From: a virus
DNA length: 64,000 nucleotides
IMG/VR virus record: IMGVR_UViG_3300007734_000991
Coordinates: 1-64,000 of that record
Strand: one strand, 5' to 3'
Shown here: positions 4,254-61,071 of the stretch, in pieces
Numbering within the stretch: the stretch's first letter is position 1
Layout: each line of letters opens with the position of its first letter
Made by a program: the position numbers and the translations under genes
The notes under the pieces: generated by a model
The model's database searches: none
Told to the model about the DNA's origin: nothing
Seen by the model: only the letters and a program-made list of their open reading frames with translations

Positions 4254-4286
4254 ACATTATGATTTATCTAGTTTATTGTTGGTTGT

Positions 4287-4874
4287 ATGTCATTAACTCC
4301 TGAAGAAATCACAGCTAATTTTGAAAAATTTCGGTCGCTTTGCGAGAAACTCGGCGAGCGGTCGGAAGCAGCTCTTGCTCTTGTTGACCACCTTGGAGAA
4401 AGACTAGCTTTGTGTCCTGCGTCCGGACGCAAAGAATACCATGCAGCTTACCCAGGCGGTCTAGTTGACCATTCTCTTCGGGTCTTGTCTTATTCTATGA
4501 AATTGTGTAAGACTTTTGGCTGGTCTGTCTCAAAAGAATCGTTGATCATCGGTTGTCTTTTTCACGACCTTGGAAAGGTGGGCGACCACGAGCATGACTA
4601 TTATATCCCGCAGGATTCTGACTGGCACCGTGAGAAGCTCGGAGAGATGTACAAACACAACAAAGACATACTGTATATGACGGTACCCGACCGCGGTGTG
4701 TGGCTCTGTCAGCACTTTGGCCTTAAATTGACACAAGATGAGTGGCTGGCAATCAAACTAAATGACGGCCAGTACATACAGGAGAACACACCCTACAAGA
4801 TGAAAGAACCTCTCCTTGCTGATATTGTTCACCAAGCTGATATTATCGCAACAAAAGAAGAAAAAGATACTTGA
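4287..4874 (+). CDS. HD-domain phosphohydrolase
   Basis: A metal-dependent hydrolase of the HD superfamily (195 aa). The conserved pattern is visible: His at GGLVDHSLRV (residue 62), the HD doublet in LFHDLGK (93-94), a further HEHD at 101-104, and a late Asp in ADIVHQADIIA. HD proteins of this size in phages usually act on nucleotides or cyclic/alarmone nucleotides, but the substrate cannot be told here. It sits between the PolA-like gene and the SSB gene, so a nucleotide-pool role is plausible. Start ATG 4287 was chosen because the homologous helical start MSLTPEEI follows; only a weak ribosome site is seen. Confidence 0.75.
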   Translation: MSLTPEEITANFEKFRSLCEKLGERSEAALALVDHLGERLALCPASGRKEYHAAYPGGLVDHSLRVLSYSMKLCKTFGWSVSKESLIIGCLFHDLGKVGDHEHDYYIPQDSDWHREKLGEMYKHNKDILYMTVPDRGVWLCQHFGLKLTQDEWLAIKLNDGQYIQENTPYKMKEPLLADIVHQADIIATKEEKDT

Positions 4875-14700: not shown

Positions 14701-15266
14701 CCTTAATAGAAAATCATGCACCAAAGCGACCCAAGGAATTAACCTGTGATATTCACAGAATTAACGTGAGGTCATCTGGTGACAATGAGAGCTATCTTGT
14801 TTTGGTGGGTAAGCTAGAAGATAAGCCATACGAAATCTTCTGCGGTCTATCGCAGCACGTTGAGGTACCGAAAAAAGCCAAGACAGGTACGATGATCAAG
14901 AATGGCAAGAAGGATGGGGTTGCGACCTACAATCTTCAGATTCCGATTGGTGATGATGATCAGCTATTGTTCAAGGACGTTGTAGAATTATTTTCAAATC
15001 CAAATCATGGATCCATGACAAGAACTTTATCGTTAGCACTACGACATGGAGTTCCTGTTCAATACGTGGTTGAGCAGCTTCAAAAGGACAAACACAGCGG
15101 CCTTCAGTCTTTCTCTAGAGCTATCTCTCGTGTCTTAAAAACATATATTCCTGATGGAACAAAAGCGCAGTCAGACAAGATCTGCGGTTCTTGCGGTCTT
15201 GAAGGAATTGTCTACAAAGAAGGTTGCGCAACCTGTAACTCTTGCGGTTGGTCAAAATGTGGGTGA
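11763..15266 (+). CDS. nrdJ: Class II (B12-dependent) ribonucleotide reductase with intein
   Basis: Reduces ribonucleotides to deoxyribonucleotides using adenosylcobalamin. The host protein (856 aa after splicing) shows NrdJ hallmarks: SLSNCFVIQSPYDS with the first redox Cys, REVAQGGRRGALMLTIDVHHP, KKVTGANISIRLTDEF, the active-site NP|CGEIVLSPYDSC, and TTAPAGSVSVLTQTTSGIEP. The C-terminal double CxxC region (KICGSCGLEG...CATCNSCGWSKCG) is typical of NrdJ thiol transfer. A 311-residue intein interrupts the protein at residues 315-625, exactly before the catalytic Cys. ATG 11763 follows AAGAGAGAAAAT. No small subunit is needed. Confidence 0.92.
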   Translation: MSYTRDEAFNASLKYFNGDELAASVFVDKYALRDASGKLHELTPSDMHRRLAREFARIEAKYPNPLSEKEIFCLLADVDHIEESKRASMTLDELASESRGFGAVVPQGSPMSAIGNEFQYQSLSNCFVIQSPYDSYAGILKADQEQAQIMKRRGGVGFDVSTIRPKGLITANAARTTDGIGVFMERFSNTCREVAQGGRRGALMLTIDVHHPEIRTFINIKRDLKKVTGANISIRLTDEFMQAVKDGEKAHLRFPVEKDAKHTVETWVDARELWHEIIEAAWASAEPGLLFWDTVKKRTPTEAYEDYRSTSTNPCIVGDTLIAVADGRNAVSIRQLAEEGKDVPVYSTNPETGQVEIKLGRNPRLTKNQVEVWKLTLDDGSFLIATPDHRIMKRDCTYVELQNLKSGDSIFPFNSFNSNGYRQVSNTGVLMTGGARRNRRQYRLIHEFHFGPVDPKIHAIHHIDCDSLNDSIENMRIMTHKEHHDLHSKNMLGESNPYFKMSEEWKTNFATHPGETNGRFSGHTNDQLLEHGRNLFEKHGKLTGKIWSDHAKKHGLPQFLANKFRFESWNNFVNQVSNNHKVVSVEKFGIEDVYNITVDDNHNYHVITSHEDSKFVVSSGICVKNCGEIVLSPYDSCRLLLVNLYKFVKNPFTSAASYDNERLKDVAVKAQRLMDDLIDLEIEAVDKIIAKIQNDPEPEDVKRSELDLWTKIKKAALGGRRTGLGITALGDTLAAMGFVYGSKNSIQMTESLYKALALSAYRSTVAMAAERGAFPVFSHKLEEKHPFIQQILEADPDLAKDYKKHGRRNIALTTTAPAGSVSVLTQTTSGIEPAFMLFYKRRKKVNGDDPNVRVDFVDPLGDKWQEYMVYHHAFKKWMEVNGKTETDFAESPYHGGTANEIDWVAKVDLQAAAQKWICHSISNTTNIPNSTSVDVVKGIYMRGWETGCKGVTIYRDGCRTGVLVAETPKEEQTIEGQPDTLIENHAPKRPKELTCDIHRINVRSSGDNESYLVLVGKLEDKPYEIFCGLSQHVEVPKKAKTGTMIKNGKKDGVATYNLQIPIGDDDQLLFKDVVELFSNPNHGSMTRTLSLALRHGVPVQYVVEQLQKDKHSGLQSFSRAISRVLKTYIPDGTKAQSDKICGSCGLEGIVYKEGCATCNSCGWSKCG
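12705..13637 (+). other. Intein with HNH homing endonuclease inside nrdJ
   Basis: In-frame protein-splicing element of 311 residues (CIVGDTLIAV ... SSGICVKN). Block A begins with Cys, block B contains GSFLIATPDHRIM with the TPDH motif, an HNH nuclease follows (IHAIHHIDCDSLNDSIENMR then HKEHHDLH), block F is VYNITVDDNHNYHVI, and the terminal residue is Asn before a Cys +1. The penultimate residue is Lys, not the usual His, which may slow Asn cyclisation or require another residue. The +1 nucleophile is the RNR catalytic Cys itself. Confidence 0.93.
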
Positions 15267-15723: not shown

Positions 15724-16392
15724 ATGTGGGCTATGCCTCCGCAACCTAATAAAGTTGAGTTGATTGGTTTTTATGGATCTGATGAAATTCATGCTCTTTC
15801 AGCGTGGACTTCAACTTCAAGAGATCTTACGGAAGAAAAGAGAAGTCGAATTCCTAATCTTTTAAAAATGTTGGCCGAAAATGGACATGAAACTCCTTTT
15901 GAAAAATCTTCGCTACATTTTCTTGTAACGACAGAGATAGCTACACACGCACAACTCCTTAAACATCGTATTGGTGTCTCTATCAACGCTGAGTCTGCTC
16001 GTTATAAAGAGCTCAAGGATGATAAGTACTATGTTCCCGTTGATTGGCCCGCAGCTGAAAAAGAGCTCTACATCGAGCACATGGAATCTTCTCTTCAAAA
16101 GTACCATGAGACGCTTGAACGCTTAGTTCAAGGAGGAATGTCAAGAAAGCGCGCAAAGGAGTCTGCTAGACTATATCTTCCCTATGGCAATCAGATCACT
16201 GCTGACATTATGTTTAATTTTCGAAGCTTCGTCCACTTTATTCGCCTACGATATTCAGAACACGCGCAATTAGAGATCAGAGATATTGCAAGTTGCATGT
16301 TAAACCTAGTAGAATCTACTAAAGTCTTTCCGGCAACTTTAGAGGCATTTGGACTCACGGAAAGCGGCGTATTAAGAAGACCATTTTCATGA
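15724..16392 (+). CDS. thyX: Flavin-dependent thymidylate synthase ThyX
   Basis: Methylates dUMP to dTMP with FAD, NADPH and methylene-tetrahydrofolate. The signature is LLKHRIGVSINAESARY, matching RHRx7SxRY apart from Lys for the first Arg; LPYGNQITADIMFNFRSFVHF and AQLEIRDIA complete the nucleotide and flavin pockets. Length (~220 aa) is normal. A second ATG at 15733 (MPPQPNKVELIGF) is an equally good start; neither has a clear ribosome site. It overlaps the kinase gene by ATGA, making a dUMP to dTMP to dTDP pair. A divergent paralogue lies at 27341. Confidence 0.9.
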   Translation: MWAMPPQPNKVELIGFYGSDEIHALSAWTSTSRDLTEEKRSRIPNLLKMLAENGHETPFEKSSLHFLVTTEIATHAQLLKHRIGVSINAESARYKELKDDKYYVPVDWPAAEKELYIEHMESSLQKYHETLERLVQGGMSRKRAKESARLYLPYGNQITADIMFNFRSFVHFIRLRYSEHAQLEIRDIASCMLNLVESTKVFPATLEAFGLTESGVLRRPFS

Positions 16393-16976
16393 GTAAAATT
16401 ATCGTTTTTGAAGGTGCAGATCGCTGTGGAAAAGCTACACAGAGCGCTATTCTTAAAGATCATATTCAATCTTTGGGGAACACTGCGGCAATTGTAGAAG
16501 TACCAATCCGCTCTGCTATCACATATAGAGCTATTTATTGGATGCTTAAGAATGGACTCGCAAAAAATCTTCCAAAAACATTCCAGGTCATTCAATTCCT
16601 CAATAGAAAGTTTTTTCAGTGGTTTACTCTCCCACGCCTAGAGAAAGTTTATGACTACATTATCTTAGATAGATGGAGTTTATCAACTGTTATTTACGGC
16701 GGCGCTGAAGGTGTTTCGCAGTGTTTTACTGTTGGTCTCTCAAAATTTCTGCGTGATCCTGATCACACTGTTGTCCTAATTGGCAAATCGTTTCCTCACG
16801 ATGCGGAGGATGTATATGAAGCTGATCAAGCTCTTCAAGAAAAAGTCAGAGAAGGTTATGCCCAATGGGTAGTGAATAACTACGACAAGGCTAGTCTTCA
16901 TGACTGTCGGCAAGAAAAGCATGTTCTAGCAAAAAAGATACAACTAGTTTTATCATCTAAGAAAATCATCCCTTGA
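16389..16976 (+). CDS. Thymidylate kinase-like P-loop kinase
   Basis: Probably phosphorylates dTMP to dTDP. The N-terminus reads IIVFEGADRCGKATQS (residues 4-19), the dTMP-kinase P-loop, with Ala after the P-loop Lys where Ser/Thr is usual. LDRWSLSTVIYGG is the DR(Y/W) nucleoside-binding motif. Length 195 aa is typical for Tmk. The start overlaps the thyX stop (ATGA), showing coupling with thymidylate synthesis. Confidence 0.75.
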   Translation: MSKIIVFEGADRCGKATQSAILKDHIQSLGNTAAIVEVPIRSAITYRAIYWMLKNGLAKNLPKTFQVIQFLNRKFFQWFTLPRLEKVYDYIILDRWSLSTVIYGGAEGVSQCFTVGLSKFLRDPDHTVVLIGKSFPHDAEDVYEADQALQEKVREGYAQWVVNNYDKASLHDCRQEKHVLAKKIQLVLSSKKIIP

Positions 16977-25960: not shown

Positions 25961-26326
25961 ATGGATAAACTTGACGAGATGTATAACCAGCAGCGAGACT
26001 TCAATTATCTCTTGAGAGATGAAAGAGGTTATCCTGACTTTCCGCTCGATCTAAAAGAAAAGAAGAATCAACAGATTCTTAAGGGGCTTGCGCATGAGTG
26101 CATGCATGAACTCTTCGAGGCTAATCATCTACTAAAGAATAGCAAGAATCATCGAGTTACCGAAGTAAAAGAATTTGACAGAGAGTCTTACAAAGAAGAA
26201 CTTGTTGATGCGCTACATTACTTCTTTGGAATTGTAATCTATAGCGGCATTTCTGCAGAAGAGCTACATGAAGCTTTCATGAAGAAGGGTGCTGTTAACG
26301 TGCAACGAGTGAAGACCGGTTATTGA
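25961..26326 (+). CDS. MazG-like nucleotide pyrophosphohydrolase
   Basis: 121-residue all-alpha NTP pyrophosphatase candidate. The family's acidic helices are visible as GLAHECMHELFEANHLL and SYKEELVDALHYFFGIVIY, carrying the ExxE...ExxD metal ligands. Such enzymes hydrolyse dUTP or other non-canonical or canonical dNTPs, or ppGpp-like signals. ATG 25961 with AAGGAAAAG upstream was chosen over longer in-frame starts because the domain begins here. It overlaps the next gene's region closely; that gene also carries a MazG-like domain. Confidence 0.7.
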   Translation: MDKLDEMYNQQRDFNYLLRDERGYPDFPLDLKEKKNQQILKGLAHECMHELFEANHLLKNSKNHRVTEVKEFDRESYKEELVDALHYFFGIVIYSGISAEELHEAFMKKGAVNVQRVKTGY

Positions 26327-26328
26327 CT

Positions 26329-27270
26329 ATGACAAAGTGGGACGACTTGCATAATGCTCTAAAAGCTCAGAAATCCTTTTCCGATTATTTTTATGACACT
26401 AATCAACTAACAAATGAGCAGAAAATTGAAGAACTAAAGACTTTGAGCTTAGCGTTACACTCTGAGATTTCAGAGATGTGCAATGCTGTCAATTACAAAG
26501 AGCATCGCAGAGAATCTCGCGAAACAGACTTGCAGAAGATTCTGTACAAGTCTGCTGATGCTTATCGTTATATTCTTGCTATAGCAAACCTATGGGGAAT
26601 AACTGCAGATAAATTAACATCTGCCTTAGAACAAAAGGACCACTATCTGCACTATAGACATCAACTTCGTGACAAGAGATGGTGCGGAGAACCGATTGTG
26701 CTCTTTGATATTGACGACGTACTTGCTGAGTTCAGATATGAGTTCTGCAGATTTGTTACAGATCAGACTGGAATCTTCATGGATCCTAACAGCTCAGAGT
26801 ACTATAACACTGTTAAGTTCAAAGAACACGGTCTTAACAGCGAGTATTTCTTTAAAAAATTTATTGACGATCATGGATTTTTGAGATTGGACTTGAACAA
26901 GCGTTACTACGATTTGTTGACGCGTCTAAAAGCTCGAGGACACTGGGTGCAAATAGTCACTGCACGAGATGCAAGCAATCTCACGTGTTTCTATGACACT
27001 TACGCATGGCTGCATCTCAACAACATTCCAGCAGATGATGTAGTTTTCACGCCCGAGAAATTTGCCTGGTTGGCAGGCCAAGATTTCTATAAGACAGCTC
27101 GATTATTTGCTGTTGATGATTCAGCAAAGCATGCATCTGAATACGCTAAGCATGGCGTGACTTGCGTTGTTCCAAAAAAATCTTACAATGTTGAAGTAAA
27201 AAATGTCAAGGGTGTCATCTACATCGAAGACAGCGACGATATTTTTGCTAAAATTAACACTATCCTTTAG
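26329..27270 (+). CDS. MazG-like plus HAD 5'(3')-nucleotidase fusion
   Basis: 313-residue two-domain protein. N-terminal ~110 residues are MazG-like helices (LSLALHSEISEMCNAV and YKSADAYRYILAIANLW). The C-terminal part is a HAD phosphatase of the deoxyribonucleotidase type: motif I VLFDIDDVLAEF with the DxDD, motif II IVTARDAS, and motif IV FAVDDSAKHA. Together they could take a dNTP to the dNMP and then to the nucleoside. TTG 26323 is an alternative start overlapping the previous stop. The domain order and the neighbouring lone MazG gene suggest a dedicated nucleotide-clearing unit. Confidence 0.8.
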   Translation: MTKWDDLHNALKAQKSFSDYFYDTNQLTNEQKIEELKTLSLALHSEISEMCNAVNYKEHRRESRETDLQKILYKSADAYRYILAIANLWGITADKLTSALEQKDHYLHYRHQLRDKRWCGEPIVLFDIDDVLAEFRYEFCRFVTDQTGIFMDPNSSEYYNTVKFKEHGLNSEYFFKKFIDDHGFLRLDLNKRYYDLLTRLKARGHWVQIVTARDASNLTCFYDTYAWLHLNNIPADDVVFTPEKFAWLAGQDFYKTARLFAVDDSAKHASEYAKHGVTCVVPKKSYNVEVKNVKGVIYIEDSDDIFAKINTIL

Positions 27271-27340: not shown

Positions 27341-28321
27341 ATGCCCATTAATAAAGACCTACAGCCGATTGAACTACCCATGGAATTAAAGTTCGGACGA
27401 CCTGTTCGCACCAAGTTCCATAATAATATTGATGCACTAAAGATTGAGCTCGTCGACCATCCTGCGCGTCAACAAGCATGGAACGTCGCTTGGCATTATG
27501 TTAAGGCAACTTGGGCAGATAGACCTGACATCTCGCCTGAGTCTGTATCGCATCGAGAACTTTCTAAAAACCTGGAAGATGTTTTCGGAGGCCGCACTCT
27601 GCCAGCGCCCATGGAATGTCTTGGCTTCACATTTAGATTAAGTGGTATGTCTTTTCAAGAGGTGACTCATATTATCAGACATCGTGCAGGAACTTTTGCT
27701 GCACAATGCACAGGCGATCGTGACCTCCGAGATGATGATGCAGTAATTCCAGAACCCGTAGAGAATTCACCTGAGTTCTTAGCGCGCTGGAAGAAGATTG
27801 TGGAAGATTCCAAGCAACTCTATGCTGATATGACTGATTCAAAGGTTGTGTCCATGATGGACGCACGTTTGATTCTACCAAAGTGCATGACGTCTTTCTA
27901 CTACATGCGACTTCCTCTCAAGGAGCTAATTGGCTTCATCTATCAACGTCAGGATAGGCAGATTCAGACGTCAGCTGATAATATTCTGGCAGCACGCATG
28001 GCAGTTGAGGTGGCTAAGGTCATTCCTGAGTTCACTACGCTAGTTGATTTCAACAAGCCTGACATGCACTACATCAAGACCTTCCGCGTGAAGGAAGGTG
28101 ATAAGTTCGTGTCTCGCGGAACGAACCTCTATTGGCCGGAACCCAAGAACGACAAGTTTGAGTTCCACCCAGATGACACTATCTACCAGGCTCGCCGTGA
28201 AGAGCTCAACGGCACGCATGGTGATGGCCCACAGCGAAAGTTTGTAGCTGCCTGGGATTCTGCAGTGTCCGAGTTTGAGAGTATTAAAAAGCAACACAAT
28301 GATTGGAAGGAAGGTAAATAA
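27341..28321 (+). CDS. Divergent ThyX-family protein
   Basis: 326 residues, longer than ThyX. The ThyX fold is recognisable from FRLSGMSFQEVTHIIRHRAG (residues 98-117) and LPLKELIGFIYQRQDRQIQT, but the substrate motif reads RHRAGTFAAQCTGDR: the Ser that contacts dUMP in classical ThyX is Cys123, and the following Arg is displaced. The C-terminal ~80 residues (from KTFRVKEGDKF) are an addition I do not recognise. A canonical ThyX already exists at 15724, so this one may act on another nucleotide or do another one-carbon reaction. It has a good ribosome site. Confidence 0.7.
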   Translation: MPINKDLQPIELPMELKFGRPVRTKFHNNIDALKIELVDHPARQQAWNVAWHYVKATWADRPDISPESVSHRELSKNLEDVFGGRTLPAPMECLGFTFRLSGMSFQEVTHIIRHRAGTFAAQCTGDRDLRDDDAVIPEPVENSPEFLARWKKIVEDSKQLYADMTDSKVVSMMDARLILPKCMTSFYYMRLPLKELIGFIYQRQDRQIQTSADNILAARMAVEVAKVIPEFTTLVDFNKPDMHYIKTFRVKEGDKFVSRGTNLYWPEPKNDKFEFHPDDTIYQARREELNGTHGDGPQRKFVAAWDSAVSEFESIKKQHNDWKEGK

Positions 28322-31034: not shown

Positions 31035-31066
31035 AAAAAGCGACCTTGTATTTGGTCGCTTTTTTT
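31035..31066 (+). terminator. Intrinsic terminator with a promoter in its loop
   Basis: AAAAAGCGACC / GGTCGCTTTTT stem with loop TTGTATTT and a run of T. It ends the leader-protein transcripts. Its loop supplies the -35 hexamer of the promoter at 31046-31074. Confidence 0.85.
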
Positions 31067-31074
31067 GTTATAAT
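31046..31074 (+). promoter_or_regulatory. Sigma70-type promoter overlapping the terminator
   Basis: TTGTAT, 17-nt spacer, then TGT-TATAAT (extended -10). All three elements match the bacterial consensus well. It drives the epimerase at 31094 after a leader containing CGGAGGAAAC. This is the best host-type promoter in the window. Confidence 0.75.
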
Positions 31075-31093
31075 GGTCTGCATCGGAGGAAAC

Positions 31094-32086
31094 ATGCGTT
31101 TTTACATCACAGGTGGTGCAGGTTTTATTGCTAGACATTTGAAGAAGAATCTGATTGTTAGAGGGCATTCGATTCTCTCGGACGCCGATCTGATCGGTGA
31201 TGGCATGCTTACCTTGCCCAAGACGGGTGAAGTCTGTGTGCATCGCAATTCAGAAGACGCTTGGACAAGAGCTTTTGAAAAATACGGCGTTGATGTTGTT
31301 GTGCACAATGCAGCTGTGGTGGGCACAGACGTGGTTGCTCTCAATCCCGCAGAAGCGACGCTGAGCAACGTGCACGGTTCTTACAACATCGTCAGGGCGG
31401 CTAATGAAACAGGTGCCGGTGTGTGTTACATGGGTACCACCGTGATTTACGACACACCTTCCTACCAGAACCAGCAAATTTTTGAAGATTCTGTCAGAAA
31501 ACCACTTACGTACTACGGCGTACAGAAGCTTGCAGGTGAACAGATCATCACCAGCATGGCAAAACGCTGGTCTGTCGTGCGTCCTCTCTTCGCTTTTGGT
31601 GACGAGGGTGACATGAATTCACTCATCGCCAAGAGTATCTATGCATCCTTGCAGAACAAAGATTCTGTTGACATCTTCTTAGACCCCGCGAAGATCAAGG
31701 ATTATCTCCACGTGTCCGATTACTGTGAAGCCGTGTCGATGATCTGTGAGAGCAAGGATGGCTGGGGTACTGATTTTAACGTCGCAGCTGAGACACCTCA
31801 CACCGCCGCAGAGATCATGAATCTTGTTTCTCGTGTTGTCGGGAAAAACGTAGAAAAAATCGTCCGCTGGTATCCAAAGACTGATTATCTCGGAAACCAC
31901 AGACTGTCATCTGCCAAGGTCAGAAAGCAAATTGGCTGGTCTCCGAAGCTTGACTTGGAGGGCGGCGTCAAGGCGACTTACGATTGGATTTCTTCAAATT
32001 CATCTAAGAACTATAACCCTCTGAAGTATCTCGATGAAGCTAAGTCGAAAGGTACAGATCTACTGCAACATTTCCCTAAAGTTTGA
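31094..32086 (+). CDS. NAD-dependent sugar epimerase/dehydratase (SDR)
   Basis: 330-residue extended short-chain dehydrogenase. It has the NAD motif TGGAGFIARHL (residues 6-16), the active-site Thr region GTTVIYD, and YYGVQK for the catalytic Tyr-xxx-Lys. The substrate is likely a nucleotide-linked hexose, as for UDP-glucose 4-epimerase or dTDP-sugar enzymes, but which one is unclear. Start ATG 31094 was chosen for the strong GGAGGA site; a longer in-frame TTG start would place a spurious extension before the Rossmann fold. Two more SDRs occur at 37655 and 38677. Confidence 0.82.
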   Translation: MRFYITGGAGFIARHLKKNLIVRGHSILSDADLIGDGMLTLPKTGEVCVHRNSEDAWTRAFEKYGVDVVVHNAAVVGTDVVALNPAEATLSNVHGSYNIVRAANETGAGVCYMGTTVIYDTPSYQNQQIFEDSVRKPLTYYGVQKLAGEQIITSMAKRWSVVRPLFAFGDEGDMNSLIAKSIYASLQNKDSVDIFLDPAKIKDYLHVSDYCEAVSMICESKDGWGTDFNVAAETPHTAAEIMNLVSRVVGKNVEKIVRWYPKTDYLGNHRLSSAKVRKQIGWSPKLDLEGGVKATYDWISSNSSKNYNPLKYLDEAKSKGTDLLQHFPKV

Positions 32087-33085: not shown

Positions 33086-36000
33086 ATGAACAGCACAAAG
33101 GAGAAGAGCTACTTGAAGCTTGAGTCCGTGCGACCTCCTACTCGGTTTGTGGGGTTTCACGCGCACTCAGGCTTCTCGTAAAGTTACGACATTTGACGGT
33201 TTGGGTTACCCTGCAGATCACATTGCCTTTGTCACCTCTGAGTCACAAGGCATGGATGCCTGGGCACTGACAGATCACGGCAATGGCAACGGACTTGCAC
33301 ACGCACATTCTGCTGCCAAGAAGATTCAGAAGAAAGGTGTGAAGTATCGACAGCTCTACGGCGTGGAGTTCTACTTCGTTCCTTCACTTTCGCAGTGGCG
33401 TATCGATTACGAGGCCCACAAGCAATCAGTCAAGGACGCGAAGTCTGCAGCTGAGGCTGAGAAGAAAGCAAAGATTCGAACTGACATCGACGCTGACGAG
33501 GCAGCAGAGGAAGAGGAGGCCGGTGGCCACGTCGTGGAGGATGAGGCAGAGACGAAGGCCGACGACTACAAGGAGAAGCCTGACTGGCAGCGTCGTTACC
33601 ACCTCGTGGCAGTGGCGCAGTCAGCTGAGGGGCTCGCGAACATCAACCGTCTCGTCAAGGCATCATTTAAAGACGGATTCTACCGTTATCCACGCATCGA
33701 CTTCGACCTCCTCAGAAAGTGGGGCAAAGGGATCGTGTGGTCGAGCGCCTGCCTCGGCGGAACAATGGCGGGTACAATTCTACGAGGCGTAGCACATAAT
33801 AGAACTTCTGAGCAAATTATTGCTGATCTTGAAGTTCTCACAGGTCAGTTCGTCGAAGCAGTCGGCCAAGAGAACTTCTTCCTCGAACTGCAATTCAATA
33901 AGCTCGAGAAACAACACACCGTAAACAAGTACCTCATCGACCTGTCTCGAAAGACCGGTGTGAAGCTGCTGGCCACATGCGACTCTCACTATCCAGATCC
34001 CTCAAAGTGGCAGGCCCGTGAGCTCTACAAGAAGCTGGGCTGGATGGGCACGAAGCTAGACGAGCAAGCACTACCGAAGTTCGAGGACCTGAAGTGCGAG
34101 CTGTATCCCAAGAACGCTACCCAGATGTGGGACGAGTTCAAGAAGTCCTACGAACAGTACGACTTCTACAAGGGTTCCGAGGAGGAAGTTCGTGACGCGA
34201 TCGAGCGGACTCACGACGTCGCTTGGCAGCATTGCGAGGACACTTGGGTCGATGTGAAACCAAAGCTGCCCAAGGTCGACACACCAGAAAAAACAGCATT
34301 CCAGCAGCTCACTGAGCTTGTTAAAGAAGGTCTTACCCGCGAAGGTCTTGCTGATAAGCCTGAGTATGTCGATCGAGCTAAATATGAGCTCGGAGACATC
34401 AAATATCTGAATTGTGCTTCTTACTTCATTACGATGTATAAAGTGTTCAATCTTGCGAAGGAGAAGACGCTCTTTGGAAGCGGCCGCGGGAGTGGTGCGG
34501 GATCGCTCGTCAACTTCCTGTTAGGCATCACGCAGATCGATCCGATACCATACGGTTTGCTTTGGAGCAGATTTTTAGGACGACACCGAGTGAGCTTTCC
34601 GGATATCGATACAGACGCAGGTGACAGGGATGTCCTTATCGATGCGGCACGAACTCTGTTCGGCGATGACGCCGTGATCCCGGTGTCCAACTTCAACACC
34701 CTGAAGCTTAAGTCCCTCGTCAAGGACATCGCCAAGATCTACGGCGTGCCCTTCGAGGAGGTGAACGAGATGACCGGCCCTCTCCAGGACGAGGTGATGC
34801 CGCTGGCTCGAGACGAGGACCAGGAGAAGTCGGTCTTCGTGCTGAAGCATGAGGACTGCATGAAGTACTCGCCGAAGTACACGGCCTTCATGGAGAAGTA
34901 TCCTGACGTTGCTGCACACGTCGAGACACTGTTCATGCAGAACAGGTCCATCGGAAGGCATGCAGGAGGCGTACTCTTAGCAGATCCTGAAGATCTTGCT
35001 GCAAACATGCCTATCATTGGCGTCAGAGGCGAGCTGCAGACACCGTGGACAGAGGGTATGAACTTCCGCAATCTGGAGGATAACGGCTTCTTGAAGTTTG
35101 ACTTCCTAGGTCTCACGCTTCTCAAAGATGTCGAGAACTGCATTAGACGCATTCTCATCAAGAATGGCAATCTTGATCCTACCTTCCTGGACATTAGAGG
35201 CTTCTTCGACAAGCATCTAAACTGTCGATACGTGAAGCAGGACGATCCTGCTGTGTGGAAGCATGTCTACCAGGACGGCTCGTTTGTGTCAGTCTTCCAG
35301 ATGACTGCAGAGGGTGCTCGGAAGTTCTGCAAGGCAGTTAAACCGACGAAGATCGAAGACCTCACAGCTATTACAGCGATCTACCGCCCTGGGCCTCTCA
35401 AAGCAAACGTGCACAACCTCTTTGTCGAAGCTAGAAAGCTTGACAAGATCAATTACCCACACCCAATCATCGAGCAAGTCCTTGGACCTACGAAAAATTT
35501 CGTTGTGTATCAGGAACAATTTATGTTGTTAGCAGAAAAACTAGGTGGCTTTACACCTGGTGAAGCTGATCAGCTGCGCAAGACGCTAGTTAAGAAGTCG
35601 CTTGACACGCTGGACAAAAAGTCATCAGAGAAGGAGCTTGCTAAGCAGAAGTTTATTGAGGGTGCTCAGCGACTTCACGGAGTTCCTCCAGAAGTGACCG
35701 AGCCTCTTTGGCAAACAATTGACAACATGAGCGTCTATTGTTTCAATAAATCCCACAGTTTAGCATATGCTATCGATTCCTACTATGCAGCATGGCTTCA
35801 TACACACTACGAGAAAGAGTGGCTGGCAACTGCACTTCAATCAGCTTCCAGCAACCCAAAAGAACTTGCGAAGACGATCTCCGAGATCAAGGCGTTAGGC
35901 TTCAAGTTCTCGAAGCACGACATCAACTACTCGGACAAGGAGTGGCAGTTCTCTGAGGAGGCCGATGCTTTCGTGCCGCCTCTCGGTTCAGTGAAGGGAA

Positions 36001-36719
36001 TTGGATCTGCAGCAGTTGAAGAGATCATGGCGAACAGGCCCTACAAGGATCTAGCTACTATGCTCTATGACGACGCAGGTGAGTGGCGACACAGCAAGGT
36101 GAACAAGACAGCTCTGTCAGCTCTTTGCAAGATTGATGCGCTTTCTTCTTTGGAAGATTTTAATCTAGGTAGAGTTAATAATCATAAGCAACTTCTAATG
36201 GCTTTGACAGATGACAAGAATTACGAGATGCTTCGACGTGGTCTCTACGGCCTGACTGCATCGCAGCTGAAGAAGAAAGCTAAGGCCGGCGAAAAGATCG
36301 AAGCTTTCTTGGATCTAATGCTTACATCGCTAACAAATGTCGAAGATTGGTCTCGAGAAGAAAAGATTGAGATGTGTCAAGATTTAACACAATCTGTGGA
36401 CACTGACCTGCTGTTTCCTCCCGCAGTCATGGAAAAGATTGCAGAAAAAAATGTTCCAAAACTTCATGATGTACCAGCAGGGGCTGAGGGAATAGGATGG
36501 TTCTGCGTTGCTGAAATTCAAATGAAGAAAACTAAGAATGGTAAAGTTTTCTATCGAATTAAAGCAACAGACGATGAACATCGAACAGCTTGGGTTAGAG
36601 CATGGGGAACTCCAAAGGAAGAAATTCGTCCATACACACTTTGGGTTGCTCAAGTTCAAAATGATCCAAACTGGGGATTCTCAACGTCTGTGTATAAGAT
36701 GCGTGAACTAGTTGGGTGA
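33086..36719 (+). CDS. dnaE: DNA polymerase III alpha subunit (family C), reading frame disrupted near the start
   Basis: Replicative polymerase. The main frame (about 33189-36719) carries family C features: PHP remainder WALTDHGNGNG, GRGSGAGSLVNFLLGITQID, FPDIDTD with two catalytic Asp, LKFDFLGLTLL with the third, and KSHSLAYAIDSYYAAW. A long acidic Lys/Glu insert lies in the PHP domain. The natural N-terminus is in another frame: ATG 33086 reads to PTRFVGFHAHSGFS, the first PHP metal motif, and then meets TAA at 33179. The homologous TFDGLGYP resumes at 33189, 10 nt later. The gene is therefore recoded, broken or mis-sequenced. The only in-frame starts otherwise are a TTG at 33120 with an unrelated N-terminus. 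Confidence 0.85.
33179..33188 (+). other. 10-nt interruption in dnaE (stop codon, frame change)
   Basis: TAAAGTTACG separates ...HSGFS from TFDGLG. It begins with a stop codon right after the UCG Ser codon. Its last triplet is ACG, which shares two of three bases with the UCG codon before the stop. Removing exactly these 10 nt restores the frame and the expected PHP sequence. Seen directly in sequence; the mechanism is unknown. Confidence 0.7.
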
Positions 36720-36726: not shown

Positions 36727-37638
36727 ATGAAGACACAACTTCCTATCAGGTATATAATCGTCGAAGGACCGGACCTTGCAGGTAAATCTACGTTTATTCA
36801 GCAACTGCATAAGGTGACAGGTTTTAAATACAATATTCAGGATAGATCATGTCTTTCTATGTTGTGCTACGCGAGACAGTATAGTCGGGATATTGATCTA
36901 CAGCGTCAATTCTTGCATGAAGAGTTGTCTGATCTTAATAACTTTTTTATTGTGCTCCTACCATCAGAAGAAGTTTTGCTAGATCGACTTGCGTATAGAG
37001 GCGATGAGTTTCAGAATTCATCATCCGTTGTGACTCTTAGAAATCTATTTGTTGAAGAGACTGAAAGTGTTGAGCACAAACCGAATGTTCTCGTGATTAG
37101 AAATATTGCTTCAGCAGAACAGCTAGCTGAGTATGTCAGTCAGCGTTTGCGCTCATATGAAAGTCCTACAATTGAAAAAGCTGGTGCGATGACTTCACGC
37201 TGGATTACAAGTGATCAACATCCTGAAATGCAACTAAAGCTTAAGCTGCACATCAATCCAGCACATGATGATGCTGAAATACTCAAACATCCGCATGAAG
37301 GTGAATATTATTCTGGAATATTGGAAAGATGTTGCTCAATTATTCAAGATGAATTGGATGGAAAGAATCCGTACAACAAACCACAAGATCTCACGTCAAG
37401 ACGGTTCTTCTATTCAAGTGATTCTTGCATCTCATCTATTCACTTTTTGCCAAGAGACGGCAGTTTAAAAGTTCTTTGCACGCTCCGCAGTACTGACGTT
37501 AACAAGAATGGATCGATTGACACGAGATTTTTAGCTCACTTGTCAGCTTTCGTTGCTAGGAAATTTAAATGGCCAACATCTAACATTGCGCTTTTCATCA
37601 ACTTTAATAGTGCACATGTAAGAAAAGATTTAGAGTGA
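36727..37638 (+). CDS. P-loop nucleotide kinase fused to a ThyA-fold domain
   Basis: 303 residues. The N-terminal ~140 residues are a thymidylate-kinase-like P-loop domain (IIVEGPDLAGKSTF, Walker A 14-21). The C-terminal ~150 residues align with thymidylate synthase/hydroxymethylase: SRR at 224-226, a Cys at 234, DG at 244-245, and LRSTDV at 253-258, with Cys-to-Arg spacing of exactly 20 as in E. coli ThyA (Cys146-Arg166). The position of ThyA Asn177 is Asp265. Asp is what T4 dCMP hydroxymethylase uses to read cytosine. The loop between SRR and Cys is shortened. This fits a protein that makes and phosphorylates a modified pyrimidine nucleotide; that is inferred. ATG 36727 has GGTGAG upstream. 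Confidence 0.7.
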   Translation: MKTQLPIRYIIVEGPDLAGKSTFIQQLHKVTGFKYNIQDRSCLSMLCYARQYSRDIDLQRQFLHEELSDLNNFFIVLLPSEEVLLDRLAYRGDEFQNSSSVVTLRNLFVEETESVEHKPNVLVIRNIASAEQLAEYVSQRLRSYESPTIEKAGAMTSRWITSDQHPEMQLKLKLHINPAHDDAEILKHPHEGEYYSGILERCCSIIQDELDGKNPYNKPQDLTSRRFFYSSDSCISSIHFLPRDGSLKVLCTLRSTDVNKNGSIDTRFLAHLSAFVARKFKWPTSNIALFINFNSAHVRKDLE

Positions 37639-37654: not shown

Positions 37655-38650
37655 ATGATTAAGATACTGATAACTGGCGCTGCAGGTTTGCTGGGAAATA
37701 ATCTATCACGACATTTTATTAGCAAGGGATTCAGGGTTGTCGGAGTAGATGACTTTAGCGGTGGATTTAAAGATTTAGTGCATGAAAATGTGCATCTGTA
37801 TGAATGTAATCTGACGGACGATAAAAAAGTTTCTCAGATCTTTATGACAGAAAAACCCGACTATGTGTTTCACTTTGCAGCATATGCAGCTGTTGGTTTG
37901 AGTCCATTTATACGCAGGCACAACTATATGAATAATGTTGTTGCTTCTGCAAATGTTATTAATGCGTGTGTCAATTATGGAGTTCAAAAGCTAATATTTG
38001 CAAGCTCAATGGGCGTATACGGCACGCAAGATCCACCGTTTGTTGAGTCCCAGCGACCTATGCCAGAAGATCCGTATGGCATTGCAAAATTTACAATAGA
38101 GCAGGACATACATGCTGCAGGTCGCCTTTTTGGCCTGAGATACAGCATCGTAAGGCCCCACAATGTCTTTGGTGTCTACCAGAATATTTGGGACAAATAT
38201 AGGAATGTAATAGGCATCTGGATTAGGCAGAGTTTATCTGGACAACCCCTGACAATCTATGGTGAAGGCAAGCAGATGCGCTCTTTCTCCGACATTGAAT
38301 TTTACATGGAGCCTTTTGAGAAACTATTGGAGCTAGGTGATGGTGAGATTTACAATATTGGTGCTGATAGCTACGTCTCTATTTCCGAAGCTGCAAGTAG
38401 ATTTCAGTCTGTTGCAAAGCATAATGGTCTTGACACTTCGGTTATTCACCTCGAACCTCGAGATGAAGTAATTTTTGCTTATTGCGATCATTCAAAAGCC
38501 AAGAGTCAGCTAGGTTTTAAAGACGGCACACATTTTGAAAATCTAGTTAACAAAATGATTATATGGGCGAAAAGTCAACCACAAAGACCTGTTAAGTTAA
38601 TGGATTATGAAATAGAAAAGGGAATGTACTCTTATTGGAAGAAGAGTTAA
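37655..38650 (+). CDS. NAD-dependent epimerase/dehydratase (UDP-hexose epimerase-like)
   Basis: 331-residue SDR: LITGAAGLLGNNL at the start, HFAAYAAVG, FASSMGVYG (active-site Ser/Met-Gly-Val region) and the catalytic DPYGIAKF (Tyr-xxx-Lys). IVRPHNVFG and the substrate-binding end regions match UDP-glucose/GlcNAc 4-epimerase types. A TATAAT lies eight bases before ATG 37655. The three SDRs together suggest synthesis of a dedicated nucleotide sugar. Confidence 0.85.
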   Translation: MIKILITGAAGLLGNNLSRHFISKGFRVVGVDDFSGGFKDLVHENVHLYECNLTDDKKVSQIFMTEKPDYVFHFAAYAAVGLSPFIRRHNYMNNVVASANVINACVNYGVQKLIFASSMGVYGTQDPPFVESQRPMPEDPYGIAKFTIEQDIHAAGRLFGLRYSIVRPHNVFGVYQNIWDKYRNVIGIWIRQSLSGQPLTIYGEGKQMRSFSDIEFYMEPFEKLLELGDGEIYNIGADSYVSISEAASRFQSVAKHNGLDTSVIHLEPRDEVIFAYCDHSKAKSQLGFKDGTHFENLVNKMIIWAKSQPQRPVKLMDYEIEKGMYSYWKKS

Positions 38651-38676: not shown

Positions 38677-39630
38677 ATGATTAAGGCGCTTATTACTGGG
38701 GGAGCTGGTTTTATTGGAAGCAATTTATGTAATACACTACATAAAATGGGATGGGATATTGACATTGTTGACAATATGTCTAATGGTCATGTTGAATTTT
38801 TGCATGTTGATCTTCGATCAGAAAAACTTTGGGTTGAAGATTTTGCTGCTTATGAAGTTCTTGAAAAGATTGGTAGCAAAGAATATGATTACGTCTTTCA
38901 TTTGGCTGCAAATCCAAGAGTAACTTACTCTATTGAAAATCCTGTTGAAACACATGAAACTAACGTTTTGAAAACGTTAATGCTGCTAGACGCATGTAAA
39001 GGCAATATTAAGCGCTTAGTTTTTGCTGCATCTTCATCTACTTATGGAAATGCCGATGTACTCCCAACGACCGAGGATTTGCCAGACAGCCCAAAATCAC
39101 CGTATGCTTTGCAGAAAGCAATCGTTGAAAAATACTTAAAACTTTATAGCGAGCTCTACGGTTTAGATTCTGCCTGTCTTAGGTTCTTTAATGTTTTTGG
39201 ACCGAACCAGCTTGGTGATTCCCCCTACTCTACGGCAATTTGTGCATGGTTGACAGCAATTAAAAGAGATAAATCAATGAGATCAGACGGCGATGGATCT
39301 CAATCACGCGACATGTGTTACGTTGATAATGTTGTTGATTGCTTGATTAAAGCTGCAATTGCTGAGAAAAATTTAAACGCTGAAGTTTTAAACGTTGGTG
39401 TTGGTGAAAGCGTTTCTAACGCCGAGATTCTTAAATATCTTAAAAAGAAGTATCCACAAGCAGTCTCACATGACGCTCCGTGGAGACCAGGCGATGTCAT
39501 GCATACTAAGTCTGATATCTCAAAGGCAAAGAGGCTTATCGGATATGAACCAAAAGTTGATGTCTGGCAGGGCTTAGACAAAACTATCGTATGGTTTGAG
39601 GAAAACTGGTCCTGGCTTAAGAATATGTGA
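38677..39630 (+). CDS. NAD-dependent epimerase/dehydratase
   Basis: 317-residue SDR: LITGGAGFIGSNL, HLAANPRVTYS, AASSSTYG and SPYALQKAIVE with the Tyr-xxx-Lys pair, then CLRFFNVFGPNQ. The set is characteristic of UDP-glucose 4-epimerase-like enzymes. It follows the previous SDR with 26 nt between them and a GGAGAGCAGAA ribosome site, so they are co-transcribed. Substrate not determinable from sequence alone. Confidence 0.86.
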   Translation: MIKALITGGAGFIGSNLCNTLHKMGWDIDIVDNMSNGHVEFLHVDLRSEKLWVEDFAAYEVLEKIGSKEYDYVFHLAANPRVTYSIENPVETHETNVLKTLMLLDACKGNIKRLVFAASSSTYGNADVLPTTEDLPDSPKSPYALQKAIVEKYLKLYSELYGLDSACLRFFNVFGPNQLGDSPYSTAICAWLTAIKRDKSMRSDGDGSQSRDMCYVDNVVDCLIKAAIAEKNLNAEVLNVGVGESVSNAEILKYLKKKYPQAVSHDAPWRPGDVMHTKSDISKAKRLIGYEPKVDVWQGLDKTIVWFEENWSWLKNM

Positions 39631-39639
39631 GGATTGATC

Positions 39640-40209
39640 ATGACTATTGTACCTGAGTTTATTGTTTACACCGGCCCGATGTTTTCTTCAAAAACATCAA
39701 GTCTTCTATCTTCACTTGAAAGATACAAATATCAGCACAAGAGAATTGTGCTCTATAAGCCTGAAATTGACGACAGATATAGCATTTCCGAAGTTGTCAC
39801 ACATGGCGGTCTTAAGATGCCTGCGTTTTGTGTTAAGACGGGCGCTGATATAATTGAGCACTTAGCAACTCTTAATGAAAATCCACACGTAATCGCAGTA
39901 GATGAGGCATTCATGATTGCGGGTGTTGCAGATACACTTATTTGGCTGTATAGAAATGGTTACACTGTTGTTGTATCATCTTTGGACTTGTCAGCTGCAG
40001 GCACTGTTTTTCATGAGATTGAAAAGATGATGATCTGGGCGACTAGAGTTGAAAAATGCACCGCTGTTTGTACTGTCTGCGGTAGAGATGCTCATTACAC
40101 TCATAAAAAGCAGACTGGGGGAGAAGAGATTGAAGTTGGTGGATCGGAACTTTACGAGCCAAGATGTTTCTTACACCATCTGCATATTGATAAGAGGCTA
40201 ACGGACTGA
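39640..40209 (+). CDS. tdk: Thymidine kinase
   Basis: Phosphorylates thymidine or deoxyuridine. Type II Tdk pattern in 189 residues: VYTGPMFSSKTSSLL (P-loop), AVDEAFMI (Walker B-like), a zinc-binding CTVCGRDAHYTHK, and the substrate lasso VGGSELYEPRC followed by HHLH. ATG 39640 is preceded by GAGGATTGATC; TTG 39634 is less likely. It is one base before the dCMP deaminase gene, forming a pyrimidine salvage pair. Confidence 0.93.
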   Translation: MTIVPEFIVYTGPMFSSKTSSLLSSLERYKYQHKRIVLYKPEIDDRYSISEVVTHGGLKMPAFCVKTGADIIEHLATLNENPHVIAVDEAFMIAGVADTLIWLYRNGYTVVVSSLDLSAAGTVFHEIEKMMIWATRVEKCTAVCTVCGRDAHYTHKKQTGGEEIEVGGSELYEPRCFLHHLHIDKRLTD

Positions 40210-40210
40210 C

Positions 40211-40636
40211 ATGGACAGACCCGCATGGCCTGAAACGTGGATGAAGATTGCTTGGAATATCTCAGACAGATCTTATGATCCTCGACTAAAAGTTGGCGCT
40301 ATAATTGTTTCAGACGATAATACTCGATTGCTTTCACTAGGCTATAACGGAAATTATCGAGGCGGTCCAAATGAGCCTGAGAGTGATGTGCCCGGACAAA
40401 GCGGAATGATTCACGCAGAAGTAAATGCATTAATTAAATGTGATTATAATTTCAATAGAAAAAAGATCATGTACCTAACACATTCGCCGTGTGTATCATG
40501 CGCCAAGCTTATTGTAAATGCCGACATTGCCAGTGTAATTTATGACGTGGAGTACAGGGATCTTTTGGGCTTGCAGATACTTACAAATTCAGGCATTCAT
40601 GTAAATAGACTGGGTGACTTGATAATTAGATCTTGA
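40211..40636 (+). CDS. dCMP deaminase
   Basis: Deaminates dCMP to dUMP, the ThyX substrate. The zinc site is complete: HAE with His68 and Glu70, and PCVSC with Cys94 and Cys97. The Gly-rich substrate loop LGYNGNYRGGPNEPE is typical of ComEB/dCMP deaminases. Length 141 aa is normal. If the fusion at 36727 does act on dCMP, this enzyme competes for the same substrate. Confidence 0.9.
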   Translation: MDRPAWPETWMKIAWNISDRSYDPRLKVGAIIVSDDNTRLLSLGYNGNYRGGPNEPESDVPGQSGMIHAEVNALIKCDYNFNRKKIMYLTHSPCVSCAKLIVNADIASVIYDVEYRDLLGLQILTNSGIHVNRLGDLIIRS

Positions 40637-40647: not shown

Positions 40648-40941
40648 ATGAAGAAAAAAGATAATGACTTTATCAGACTCATGCGTGAAGAGTGGAATGC
40701 AAAAATGTCCGCGCTTCAAGAAGAAGTTGAGCTTATGTTTAATACCAAGGTCGATAATGATAAAAAGACTGTCATTAGCCCCGGCTTAAAGATAAGAAGC
40801 AAAGATGAGCAAATTCTTTATAAAGTAGCCGCCGTGAGCATTAGAGGAGTCGATTTAAGACCACCAGATGCACCTGAAGATGGCTCTAAAGACTTCTTTG
40901 TTGACAAGGACACCCTGGAGAAAAACTATGAGCTCGATTAA
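40648..40941 (+). CDS. Small orphan protein preceding SOD
   Basis: 97 residues, unrecognised. A helical N-terminus (LMREEWNAKMSALQEEVELMF) is followed by a beta-rich region with ISPGLKIRSKDEQILYKVAAV, which could be a small beta barrel. Its end overlaps the superoxide dismutase start by 14 nt. ATG 40648 was chosen; TTG 40633 is an in-frame alternative that overlaps the deaminase stop. Confidence 0.55.
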   Translation: MKKKDNDFIRLMREEWNAKMSALQEEVELMFNTKVDNDKKTVISPGLKIRSKDEQILYKVAAVSIRGVDLRPPDAPEDGSKDFFVDKDTLEKNYELD

Positions 40942-41659
40942 GAAAAGCGATGAAATTCTTGGCATTGATGTCAATAGCATTATAAAAAATACTTTTAAAG
41001 AACAGTCAAAGACTTCTTCTGGCGGTCTAAAACAGGCGCTTGATGAAGCTTTTGTGCATGAGCCAAAACAGTTTAAGCAAGTTACTGAATTCTTGTCTGA
41101 GAAGGCAAAATCTGCACATATTGAACTCTATAAGGGCTACATTGAGTCTTTTAATAAGGTGTCAGCAAAACTAGATTCAGTCAATAGATCTGAAGCAAAT
41201 TCTAGACACGCCGATTACAGATCATTAAAACTTGACGAAGCGTATAACTTGAATGGTACATGGCTACACGAACTTCACTTTGCTAATGGTTTTGATCCAC
41301 ATTCAGAAATAGTAATGGATTCAATGTCTTATCTTCGACTGCAGAGAGACTTTGGAACTTTTGAAGATTGGCAGAGAGATTTCATTGCCGCCGGCATGAG
41401 CGCAGGTAATGGCTGGGTTGTTACAGGTTTTAATATGTTCTTAAAGAAGTATGTTAATACAATTGTTAGCCATCACAGTGGCGATATTCAAATGGGTCTC
41501 TATCCAGTAATTGTGGTTGACATGTGGGAACATGCTTATTTTAGAGACTATCTTACAGACAAGAAGTCTTATTTGATTGCACAGATGAAAGAGCTGAATT
41601 GGACAGTCATTGAGGAGCGCTTCAAGAAGGCTGAAGCCATAGCTCAGGTGTTAAAATGA
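40928..41659 (+). CDS. Fe/Mn superoxide dismutase-like protein
   Basis: 243 residues, longer at the N-terminus than SodA/SodB. The C-terminal SOD domain is clear: NLNGTWLHELHFANGF with His114 in place of SOD His73, FGTFEDWQRDFIAAG, NGWVVTGFN, and VVDMWEHAYFRDYL with Asp198 and His202. The first ligand, expected in helix one, probably is His64 (SAHIELYKGYIESFN), but it lies one residue off the usual spacing. The Trp/Tyr of the active site are partly changed. It may be an active SOD or a structural relative. ATG 40928 lies downstream of CCTGGAGAAAAAC. The stop overlaps the next start (ATGA). Confidence 0.75.
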   Translation: MSSIKKSDEILGIDVNSIIKNTFKEQSKTSSGGLKQALDEAFVHEPKQFKQVTEFLSEKAKSAHIELYKGYIESFNKVSAKLDSVNRSEANSRHADYRSLKLDEAYNLNGTWLHELHFANGFDPHSEIVMDSMSYLRLQRDFGTFEDWQRDFIAAGMSAGNGWVVTGFNMFLKKYVNTIVSHHSGDIQMGLYPVIVVDMWEHAYFRDYLTDKKSYLIAQMKELNWTVIEERFKKAEAIAQVLK

Positions 41660-57178: not shown

Positions 57179-58234
57179 GTGAAAAGATATCCCGGTTTTC
57201 TTAAAGATCTACAACAACAGTTAGAAGGCTTGCCGCAAGAAACGCTTTCAAGAGTTTCTAGGCATGGTGGTCTAGATCTTCATGATCTAATTTCATTGCT
57301 GCTTGAACCGCAAGACTTTACTGTTGATTGTCCTGACGTTCTTTCGCAAGATGAAATATTCCATTATGCAGAGATAAAATCCTCAGAGACAGGTAGAAAA
57401 CTAATTCTTGATGACGAGGTTGCTTTTTGCATTTTAGCAGGCGGCGCAGGCACAAGAATTGGTGGTCCTAAATGCTTGCTGAGCATCGGTGATGGTGAAA
57501 CTCTTCTGTCAAGAAAAATTAGACAGGCTGGTGTTTTAAAAAATATCTGGGTGATAGTAAGCCCAGACCTAAAATCACACGTACGTGAGCACTTGACTGA
57601 AAGAGGTCTATTTTCAGATAATATAAAAATTATTGAGCAGTTTGAATCTGTTCGACTCACTCCAAGCAATCAATTGTTTTTAATGAACAATCAGGCAAGT
57701 TTATACCCATGCGGACACGGGGATGTCGTTCCTGCCTTAATACAGAGTGAAGTTCTACAAAAATTCAATGAGAACGGCGGTAAACACGTTTACGTAGCAA
57801 ATGTTGATAATTTTTCTGCAAGCATCGATCCTGATATATTGGGTCTTCATCATGAAAACAAAGTGCCAGTTACCTGTGAAGTTGTTGCACGAAATTCAAA
57901 TGATAGCGGAGGCTTTTTGTGCAAGCACATGGGCATCTCACAGATTGTAGAAGGATTTAGAATGTCTTCTGTCACTGATCAAACAAAGTTTACCCATATA
58001 AACACAAACACGATGATTTTTCAGGCAAACCTTGACTTCAATGCTATTGCTTGGTCGTGGCACAGAGTCAAGAAAAATTATAATGGTAATCTAGTCATTC
58101 AGTATGAAAGATTGCTTCAGCAGCTAACAGCTCATTTTAAGACTCAATTTGTAGAAGTTGAGAGAGAAAGAAGATTTGCGCCGATAAAGAGCGCGTCAGA
58201 TCTTGATACTATAAAGAAAAATGATTCCCCCTAG
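57179..58234 (+). CDS. UDP-sugar pyrophosphorylase (UDPGP family)
   Basis: 351 residues from GTG 57179. The nucleotide-binding CILAGGAGTRIGGPKCLL (residues 84-101), sugar-site YPCGHGDVVPAL, YVANVDNFSAS (metal-site Asp) and FTHINTNTMIFQ follow the order of UTP-glucose-1-phosphate/UDP-GlcNAc pyrophosphorylases. It would make a UDP-sugar from UTP and a sugar-1-phosphate. With three SDR enzymes in the window this gives a nucleotide-sugar pathway. It overlaps the glycosylase start by 14 nt. Confidence 0.82.
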   Translation: MKRYPGFLKDLQQQLEGLPQETLSRVSRHGGLDLHDLISLLLEPQDFTVDCPDVLSQDEIFHYAEIKSSETGRKLILDDEVAFCILAGGAGTRIGGPKCLLSIGDGETLLSRKIRQAGVLKNIWVIVSPDLKSHVREHLTERGLFSDNIKIIEQFESVRLTPSNQLFLMNNQASLYPCGHGDVVPALIQSEVLQKFNENGGKHVYVANVDNFSASIDPDILGLHHENKVPVTCEVVARNSNDSGGFLCKHMGISQIVEGFRMSSVTDQTKFTHINTNTMIFQANLDFNAIAWSWHRVKKNYNGNLVIQYERLLQQLTAHFKTQFVEVERERRFAPIKSASDLDTIKKNDSP

Positions 58235-61039: not shown

Positions 61040-61071
61040 AGTATTTATTGTACTTATTGTTAGGTGTTTGA

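Follow-up and report, generated by a model that had tools for sequence, protein, structure and literature searches.

How an enzyme of the thymidylate synthase (TS) superfamily comes to select cytosine is illustrated by gp42, the dCMP hydroxymethylase of phage T4. The cytosine determinant in gp42 is an Asp at the position of ThyA Asn177, Arg123 and Arg124 bind phosphate, and the folate contacts include Asn53, Tyr56, Glu60, Ile81 and Trp82, with Asp171 forming part of a pterin water network (PMC6400193). dCMP hydroxylases of the same superfamily were reported only recently. In Mosigvirus, 5-hydroxy-dCMP is made at the mononucleotide stage by a TS-superfamily enzyme, a homolog of the hydroxymethylase with a distinct activity (PMC13390438, which itself cites earlier reports from 2025, the Lee preprint and the Mahler paper), and PDB entries were released in July 2025. 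Among these structures, 9iqu ("phage HY126 dCMP hydroxylase-AfhB with sustrate dCMP") and 9iqc ("Monooxygenase dependent on riboflavin with dCMP and FAD") contain chains nearly identical to RB69 ORF048c. We infer that ORF048c is the Mosigvirus 5-hydroxy-dCMP enzyme, on two grounds: the sugar-gene cluster of RB69 has it as its TS-like gene, and it corresponds to the 9iqc chain. In the comparisons below, the hydroxylase type is represented by RB69, S143_2, PM2 and AbTZA1, with PTm1 and OLIVR5 as relatives by sequence; the published statement on hydroxylation extends to the Mosigvirus members only.

ORF048c lies three genes away from a "thymidylate kinase" in RB69, a protein that falls in phrog_761, and the corresponding distance in PM2 is two genes. 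Here we describe a phage gene in which a kinase of this kind and a TS-like domain are joined in one polypeptide. Two proteins that are separate in one genome and fused in another classically point to joint function, and the pattern lends support to the idea that the kinase half would phosphorylate a modified monophosphate.

Architecture of the fusion protein

The gene lies in a window of 64,000 nt, the whole stretch of DNA that was analyzed, which belongs to a virus record 69,812 bases long. Its ATG starts 8 nt past the stop of the preceding DnaE gene (33120-36719), and an in-frame TTG is present upstream, at 36712. Conservation is counted over 76 aligned rows, 75 of which have a complete TS region; the row for L020 is incomplete owing to a contig end. 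The predicted features are as follows.

36727..37638, plus strand: kinase-TS-superfamily fusion gene (P0001), ATG at 36727, stop ending at 37638, 303 aa
36727..37170, plus strand: kinase half, residues 1-148, a compact YorR/TMPK-like P-loop kinase by YorR (2axp/3kb2) profile, TMPK/RB69p045 hhalign and phrog_761
36763..36786, plus strand: Walker A EGPDLAGK, E13-K20; E13, G14, D16, G19 and K20 in 75/76, with L046 gapped
36841..36849, plus strand: DRS motif D39-R40-S41, the DRX motif of TMPK; D39 and R40 in 76/76
36985..37005, plus strand: R87...R91-G92-D93, LID-type arginines, 76/76; the RGDE stretch aligns also in YorR
37219..37635, plus strand: minimal TS-superfamily half, residues 165-303, by hhalign, AlphaFold and Foldseek
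37297..37299, plus strand: E191, nearly invariant, lost in L070 and L095
37396..37404, plus strand: SRR, residues 224-226, matching the phosphate binders Arg123/Arg124 of gp42 and Arg126'/Arg127' of ThyA; R225 in 75/76, R226 in 74/76
37426..37428, plus strand: C234, at the nucleophile position (ThyA C146, gp42 C148), 74/76
37486..37491, plus strand: R254-S255 (ThyA R166-S167), with the Arg at C+20; 73/75 each
37495..37497, plus strand: D257, at the ThyA D169 position (R+3), variable (N in 36, D in 26, E in 13)
37519..37521, plus strand: D265, putative base-reading Asp (ThyA N177, gp42 D179), 75/75
37615..37617, plus strand: H297, at the ThyA H207 position, 73/75; between 1 and 17 residues remain after this His in the family

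The kinase half is defined by a set of residues (E13, G14, D16, G19, K20, D39, R40, R54, R87, R91, G92 and D93) present in 75-76 of the 76 rows. Although it matches Thymidylate_kin weakly, its best-matching family is phrog_761, and its profile retrieves SPbeta YorR (2axp/3kb2) first from the PDB (E 6.7e-12), with thymidylate kinases far behind; hhalign against a set of TMPKs and RB69p045 gave E 8e-12. Homology of the gp1 type was not found in a comparison with one sequence, the dNMP kinase of OLIVR5 (hhalign probability 1.7%). The stretch from Walker A to the DR motif is where thymidylate kinases hold the acceptor. About 57 phrog_761 positions are skipped there in the kinase half, a gap that hhalign shows as well, and a dNMP acceptor-binding segment sought between Walker A and DRX is missing. 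Such shortening at the acceptor site counts against fixing the substrate of the kinase half. A separate thymidylate kinase is encoded in the same window at 16389-16976.

The second half is strongly reduced: it has about 140 aa, whereas the 15 TS-superfamily proteins from phages with which it was compared are 225-311 aa long. When searched alone against Pfam and PHROG it gave zero matches, PF00303 included, and PF00303 was above the cut-off in 0/13 contigs surveyed; our reading is that this model is too long for a domain so short and divergent. An ordinary family search would thus overlook the TS-like half. Profile comparison does recover the relationship: hhalign of the C-terminal family against the 15 proteins gave a probability of 97% and E 5e-11, compared with E 0.1-0.5 for eight column-shuffled controls, and its alignments place SRR, Cys, Arg, Asp and His in register. 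AlphaFold modeled the full-length protein with pLDDT 95.8 and pTM 0.91 (52 aligned sequences as input), and the TS-like half alone with pLDDT 92.6. For both models, the best PDB matches in Foldseek are TS-superfamily structures (probability 1.00). Membership of the C-terminal half in the TS superfamily, when tested by profile and by modeled fold, is thus borne out. A weak match of the relative P0002 alone to phrog_35203 (E 0.002, present in one of three records) was discarded.

Taken on sequence profiles and structural models, P0001 is confirmed as a YorR/thymidylate-kinase-like P-loop half followed by a minimal TS-superfamily half. The initial annotation had described just this arrangement, and its observations hold: the thymidylate-kinase-like P-loop domain; the reduced ThyA-fold domain; the SRR triplet; the Asp at the ThyA Asn177 position; and a spacing of exactly 20 from Cys to Arg (C234 to R254), which is kept in 73/75 relatives, the exceptions (25 and 31) coming from one automatic alignment. 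Its interpretation of the protein and its surroundings is partly supported, as discussed below.

Distribution, variation and genomic surroundings

The first two full-length relatives, P0002 and P0004, lie on contigs of 200 kb and 202 kb. A search with an alignment of five sequences subsequently gave 103 relatives. Of these, 80 loci were retained and yielded 75 distinct proteins, so that the family now comprises 75 distinct proteins and more than 100 matches; the contigs, from uncultured phages, reach 284 kb. When five members of the family and the P0001 C-terminal half were run against a collection of annotated phages, zero full-length relatives were returned, the matches being to the kinase half or weakly to the TS half only; weak tblastn matches in ChewyVIII, SaP7 and Moleficent were judged to be chance from their gene surroundings. 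A scan of bacterial and archaeal genomes with two degenerate patterns, not an exhaustive search, gave zero relatives, and a full-length match was not found in BFVD. Nor did a search of open-licence papers find a report of a kinase-TS fusion, and the fusion seems to be undescribed.

Deviations at 13 scored residues are confined to five rows. L020 lacks R254, D265 and H297 owing to its contig end, L046 has an alignment gap at K20 in Walker A, and L076 differs only by R226Q. The remaining two are more instructive. L070 (9992-10879) carries E191K, R226N, C234N, R254K and H297Y, and L095 (9989-10870) carries E191R, R225K, C234N, R254T and H297F, both keeping D265 and the kinase set. Judged by their residues, these two appear to form a natural dead-half lineage in which the TS-side catalytic residues are gone and those of the kinase are intact. 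Joint loss of E191, an SRR arginine, C234, R254 and H297 is as expected of one active site, and suggests that E191, which cannot be placed by homology, is part of it. Elsewhere the set is strikingly constant: 72 of the 75 complete proteins have E191, both SRR arginines, the Cys, R254, D265 and H297, and R243 is invariant (75/75 aligned rows).

Gene neighborhoods were counted over the 80 loci and the window, 81 in all; the counts are lower bounds, because flank length and contig ends cut loci short. Three conserved neighbors stand out.

33120..36719, plus strand: DNA polymerase III alpha (DnaE), upstream neighbor; PF07733 E 5e-49; 81/81
39634..40209, plus strand: thymidine kinase; PF00265 E 5e-38; 69/81
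40211..40636, plus strand: dCMP deaminase; PF00383 E 3e-19; 67/81

SDR epimerases (61/81), a deoxyribosyltransferase-like protein (42/81) and an atypical ThyX (34/81) are found less often. The tie of the fusion to dNTP supply and replication is strong. The initial annotation had gone further, reading the neighbors as a base-hypermodification pathway, and this part is weak, its sugar side above all. The dCMP deaminase and thymidine kinase genes are conserved, but among 13 contigs surveyed, which take in the window's own record and may include fragments, a UDP-sugar pyrophosphorylase (UDPGP) occurs in two, a SIS sugar isomerase in none, and a GT4-type glycosyltransferase in seven. Sugar-pathway genes are not a feature of the fusion family, and an arabinose route like that of RB69 is not proposed for it, given the counts for SIS and UDPGP. 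The window itself has sugar-nucleotide genes, namely a UDP-sugar pyrophosphorylase-like gene at 57179-58234 (plus strand) and SDR epimerases at 31046-32086, 37655-38650 and 38677-39630 (plus strand); a GT4-type match was not found within its record. GT4-type genes occur in close pairs on the contigs of L002, L031, L042, L070, L033 and L090 (G001, G004, G005, G008, G009 and G012), and these paired glycosyltransferases are candidates for DNA or surface glycosylation.

Other genes deserve mention in their own right. PF02511 ThyX is present in 13/13 contigs, with two copies in 11. Beside an ordinary ThyX (15724-16392), the window encodes a second, ThyX-like protein at 27341-28321 (plus strand; PF02511 6e-16) in which RHRAGTFAAQCTGDR replaces the RHRxxSxNxxSxR motif; a long PF02511 match of this sort, in a frame of 320-351 aa, recurs in 13/13 contigs searched. 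The atypical protein may be another pyrimidine-modifying flavoenzyme. At 26323-27270 (plus strand), a dUTPase_2-like NTP pyrophosphatase is fused to an NT5C 5'-deoxynucleotidase domain, an arrangement seen also in L019 and L020. A ribonucleotide reductase large chain at 11763-15266 (plus strand) is interrupted by an intein with splicing domain and HNH, and an iron/manganese superoxide dismutase C-terminal domain is encoded at 40868-41659 (plus strand), its family occurring near the fusion in 59/81. PrkA kinase, SpoVR and DUF444 (YeaH-type) genes are consecutive at 59105-63542 (minus strand), giving this phage record a bacterial stress trio. Lastly, L112 has at 2791-4425 (about 65.8-67.4 kb of the record, beyond the window) a frame for a GroEL-like chaperonin, named by eye from the ORF list.

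Base reading, cofactor and proposed function

Since the Asp of gp42 sets its choice of cytosine, the cytosine-type reading already proposed for D265 is sound. The residue is kept, and lies 11 positions after the R254 position, in 75/75. The same Asp is also carried by the RB69 ORF048c-type dCMP hydroxylases (5-hodCMP synthases). The earlier comparison with T4 dCMP hydroxymethylase is therefore right about the residue and too specific about the enzyme, the Asp being common to both types.

The reading we favor, which we put close to an even call, if a shade below it, is that of a bifunctional enzyme, with one activity that modifies C5 of dCMP and another that phosphorylates the product. The TS-like half would bind dCMP, with the SRR arginines and R254 holding the phosphate and D265 reading cytosine. 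C234 would attack C6, and C5 would then be modified, most likely by hydroxylation, perhaps flavin-assisted, to 5-hydroxy-dCMP, as in the RB69-type dCMP hydroxylases; folate-dependent hydroxymethylation at C5 is the less likely chemistry. The YorR/thymidylate-kinase-like half would next phosphorylate the modified monophosphate, toward a triphosphate that could serve as substrate for the phage's DNA polymerase III, the product of the adjoining gene.

An alternative we regard as unlikely is that the TS-like half is a gp42-like, folate-dependent dCMP hydroxymethylase and the kinase half makes hm-dCDP, so that one protein would do the work of T4 gp42 and gp1. The Cys, Arg, SRR, Asp and His are all the same; T4 gp42 (1b49) ranks first in a PDB profile search (2.8e-4), above 9iqu (8e-3), and tblastn with one relative matched gp42-type genes weakly. 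In that profile search, nine of the 14 PDB matches, at E 0.3-0.5, were dismissed as noise: a transporter, and a toxin light chain that accounts for eight entries. The difficulty lies in the folate site. By sequence and by secondary-structure order, gp42 residues 53-85, the folate-pocket segment, have no counterpart in the TS-like half. An Asp at R+3 (gp42 Asp171) combined with a Gly at R+7 occurs in 9/9 gp42 or TS proteins, 0/75 fusions and none of the hydroxylase-type proteins, the R+3 residue being unconserved and the R+7 Gly absent in the family. The chain also ends early after the His, with 1-17 residues in the fusions and 6-23 in hydroxylase-type proteins, compared with 19-30 in the gp42 type and 57-80 in TS. 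These missing features and the early end favor a folate-free reaction. As the segment that holds Glu58 in TS and Glu60 in gp42 is lacking, any cofactor pocket would be incomplete unless the missing part comes from the kinase half or from a partner subunit, which counts against the favored reading too. The kinase half is not of the gp1 type in the one comparison made above. Membership of the gp42 subfamily fails at the folate site. DHFR was found in 0/13 contigs, an absence that we rejected as anti-folate evidence because it does not discriminate: hydroxymethylation regenerates THF rather than DHF, and so the absence is neutral.

Sequence profiles do not separate the two subfamilies (hhalign E 3.9e-8 for hydroxylase versus 4.7e-8 for hydroxymethylase), and a tree of 77 columns with one very long branch gives AU p values of 0.55 for grouping with the hydroxylases and 0.27 for grouping with gp42, compatible with either placement. 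In searches with the predicted structures, a check that the initial annotation had proposed for the C-terminal half, Foldseek places 9iqu and 9iqc at ranks 1-2 for the full model and the half alone, and gp42 32nd in the search with the half. Membership in the hydroxylase subfamily is thus favored by modeled structure and not settled by sequence.

Rather improbable, to our minds, is a TS-like half that has given up catalysis and serves as a regulatory or specificity module, sensing dCMP or another dNMP or delivering it to the kinase. Its strongly reduced size would suit such a role, as would L070 and L095, whose retention of kinase residues without TS-side catalytic ones implies that this chemistry is dispensable for the protein to be of use. 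Yet the full TS set kept in 72/75 exceeds the needs of binding alone, and sensing has no need of a Cys nucleophile. A further proposal, of which we are more doubtful still, invokes another C5 reaction or substrate; for instance, the kinase half might place its phosphate on the new 5-OH and not on the 5'-phosphate, or the substrate might be a salvaged nucleoside or nucleotide. The kinase half does lack the acceptor-binding stretch of thymidylate kinases, and salvage genes (thymidine kinase, deoxyribosyltransferase-like) are among the neighbors, but D265 in 75/75 speaks for the TS-like half having a cytosine substrate. That assembly or a misread frame merged two genes is refuted by 75 distinct fused proteins on many separate contigs.

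If dCMP hydroxylation followed by phosphorylation is indeed the function, a bolder picture can be drawn. It is conceivable, although we hold it tentatively, that a half-size, folate-free TS fold hydroxylates dCMP and passes the product to its own kinase half, channeling a precursor toward modified-cytosine DNA. With the same reserve, such a channeling fusion might replace the two separate genes of RB69-like phages in widespread, often jumbo-sized uncultured phages. To our knowledge, the minimal fold of the fusion, if catalytic, would be the smallest such core in the TS superfamily, and it would serve as a minimal model of the requirements of C5 chemistry on a TS fold. A fused half-size version with more than 100 matches in uncultured phages would mean that pre-modification of cytosine reaches far past the T4-like phages; phages that carry it are predicted to contain modified cytosine, with a bearing on escape from host restriction.

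Comparison with known systems

T4 gp42 (1b49, 6a9a) shares with the fusion the positions of Cys148, Arg123/124 and Asp179. A folate segment with Glu60 and Trp82, Asp171, the Gly at R+7 and a longer tail belong to gp42 only, none of them being conserved in the fusion, and gp42 is not fused. ThyA and the CMP hydroxymethylase MilA have the core fold and the phosphate, Cys and Arg residues in common with it; ThyA, however, reads its base with an Asn, is about 260-310 aa long and has a C-terminal tail of at least 57 residues after the His.

On the kinase side, YorR (SPbeta, 2axp/3kb2), thymidylate kinases and RB69p045 resemble the kinase half in Walker A, the DR motif and the LID arginines, and YorR shares the RGDE stretch too; identity to YorR is 20% in the structural match. 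In all of these the stretch from Walker A to DR is much longer than in the fusion. Protist DHFR-TS offers a parallel for the architecture, joining a TS-fold domain to a second enzyme of nucleotide metabolism, but the partner there is DHFR rather than a kinase, and the TS is full-size and folate-dependent.

The RB69 ORF048c-type hydroxylase (9iqc, 9ir2 and 9iqu, "AfhB") has the TS-superfamily fold, the Cys, the Arg at C+20, the Asp at R+11, SRR and an SAH near the C-terminus in common with the fusion, and like it lacks the pair of Asp at R+3 and Gly at R+7. Unlike the fusion, it is free-standing, about 225-254 aa long, and retains an N-terminal portion missing from the fusion. It is a hydroxylase according to PDB titles and PMC13390438, whereas the fusion is known here from its sequence and model.
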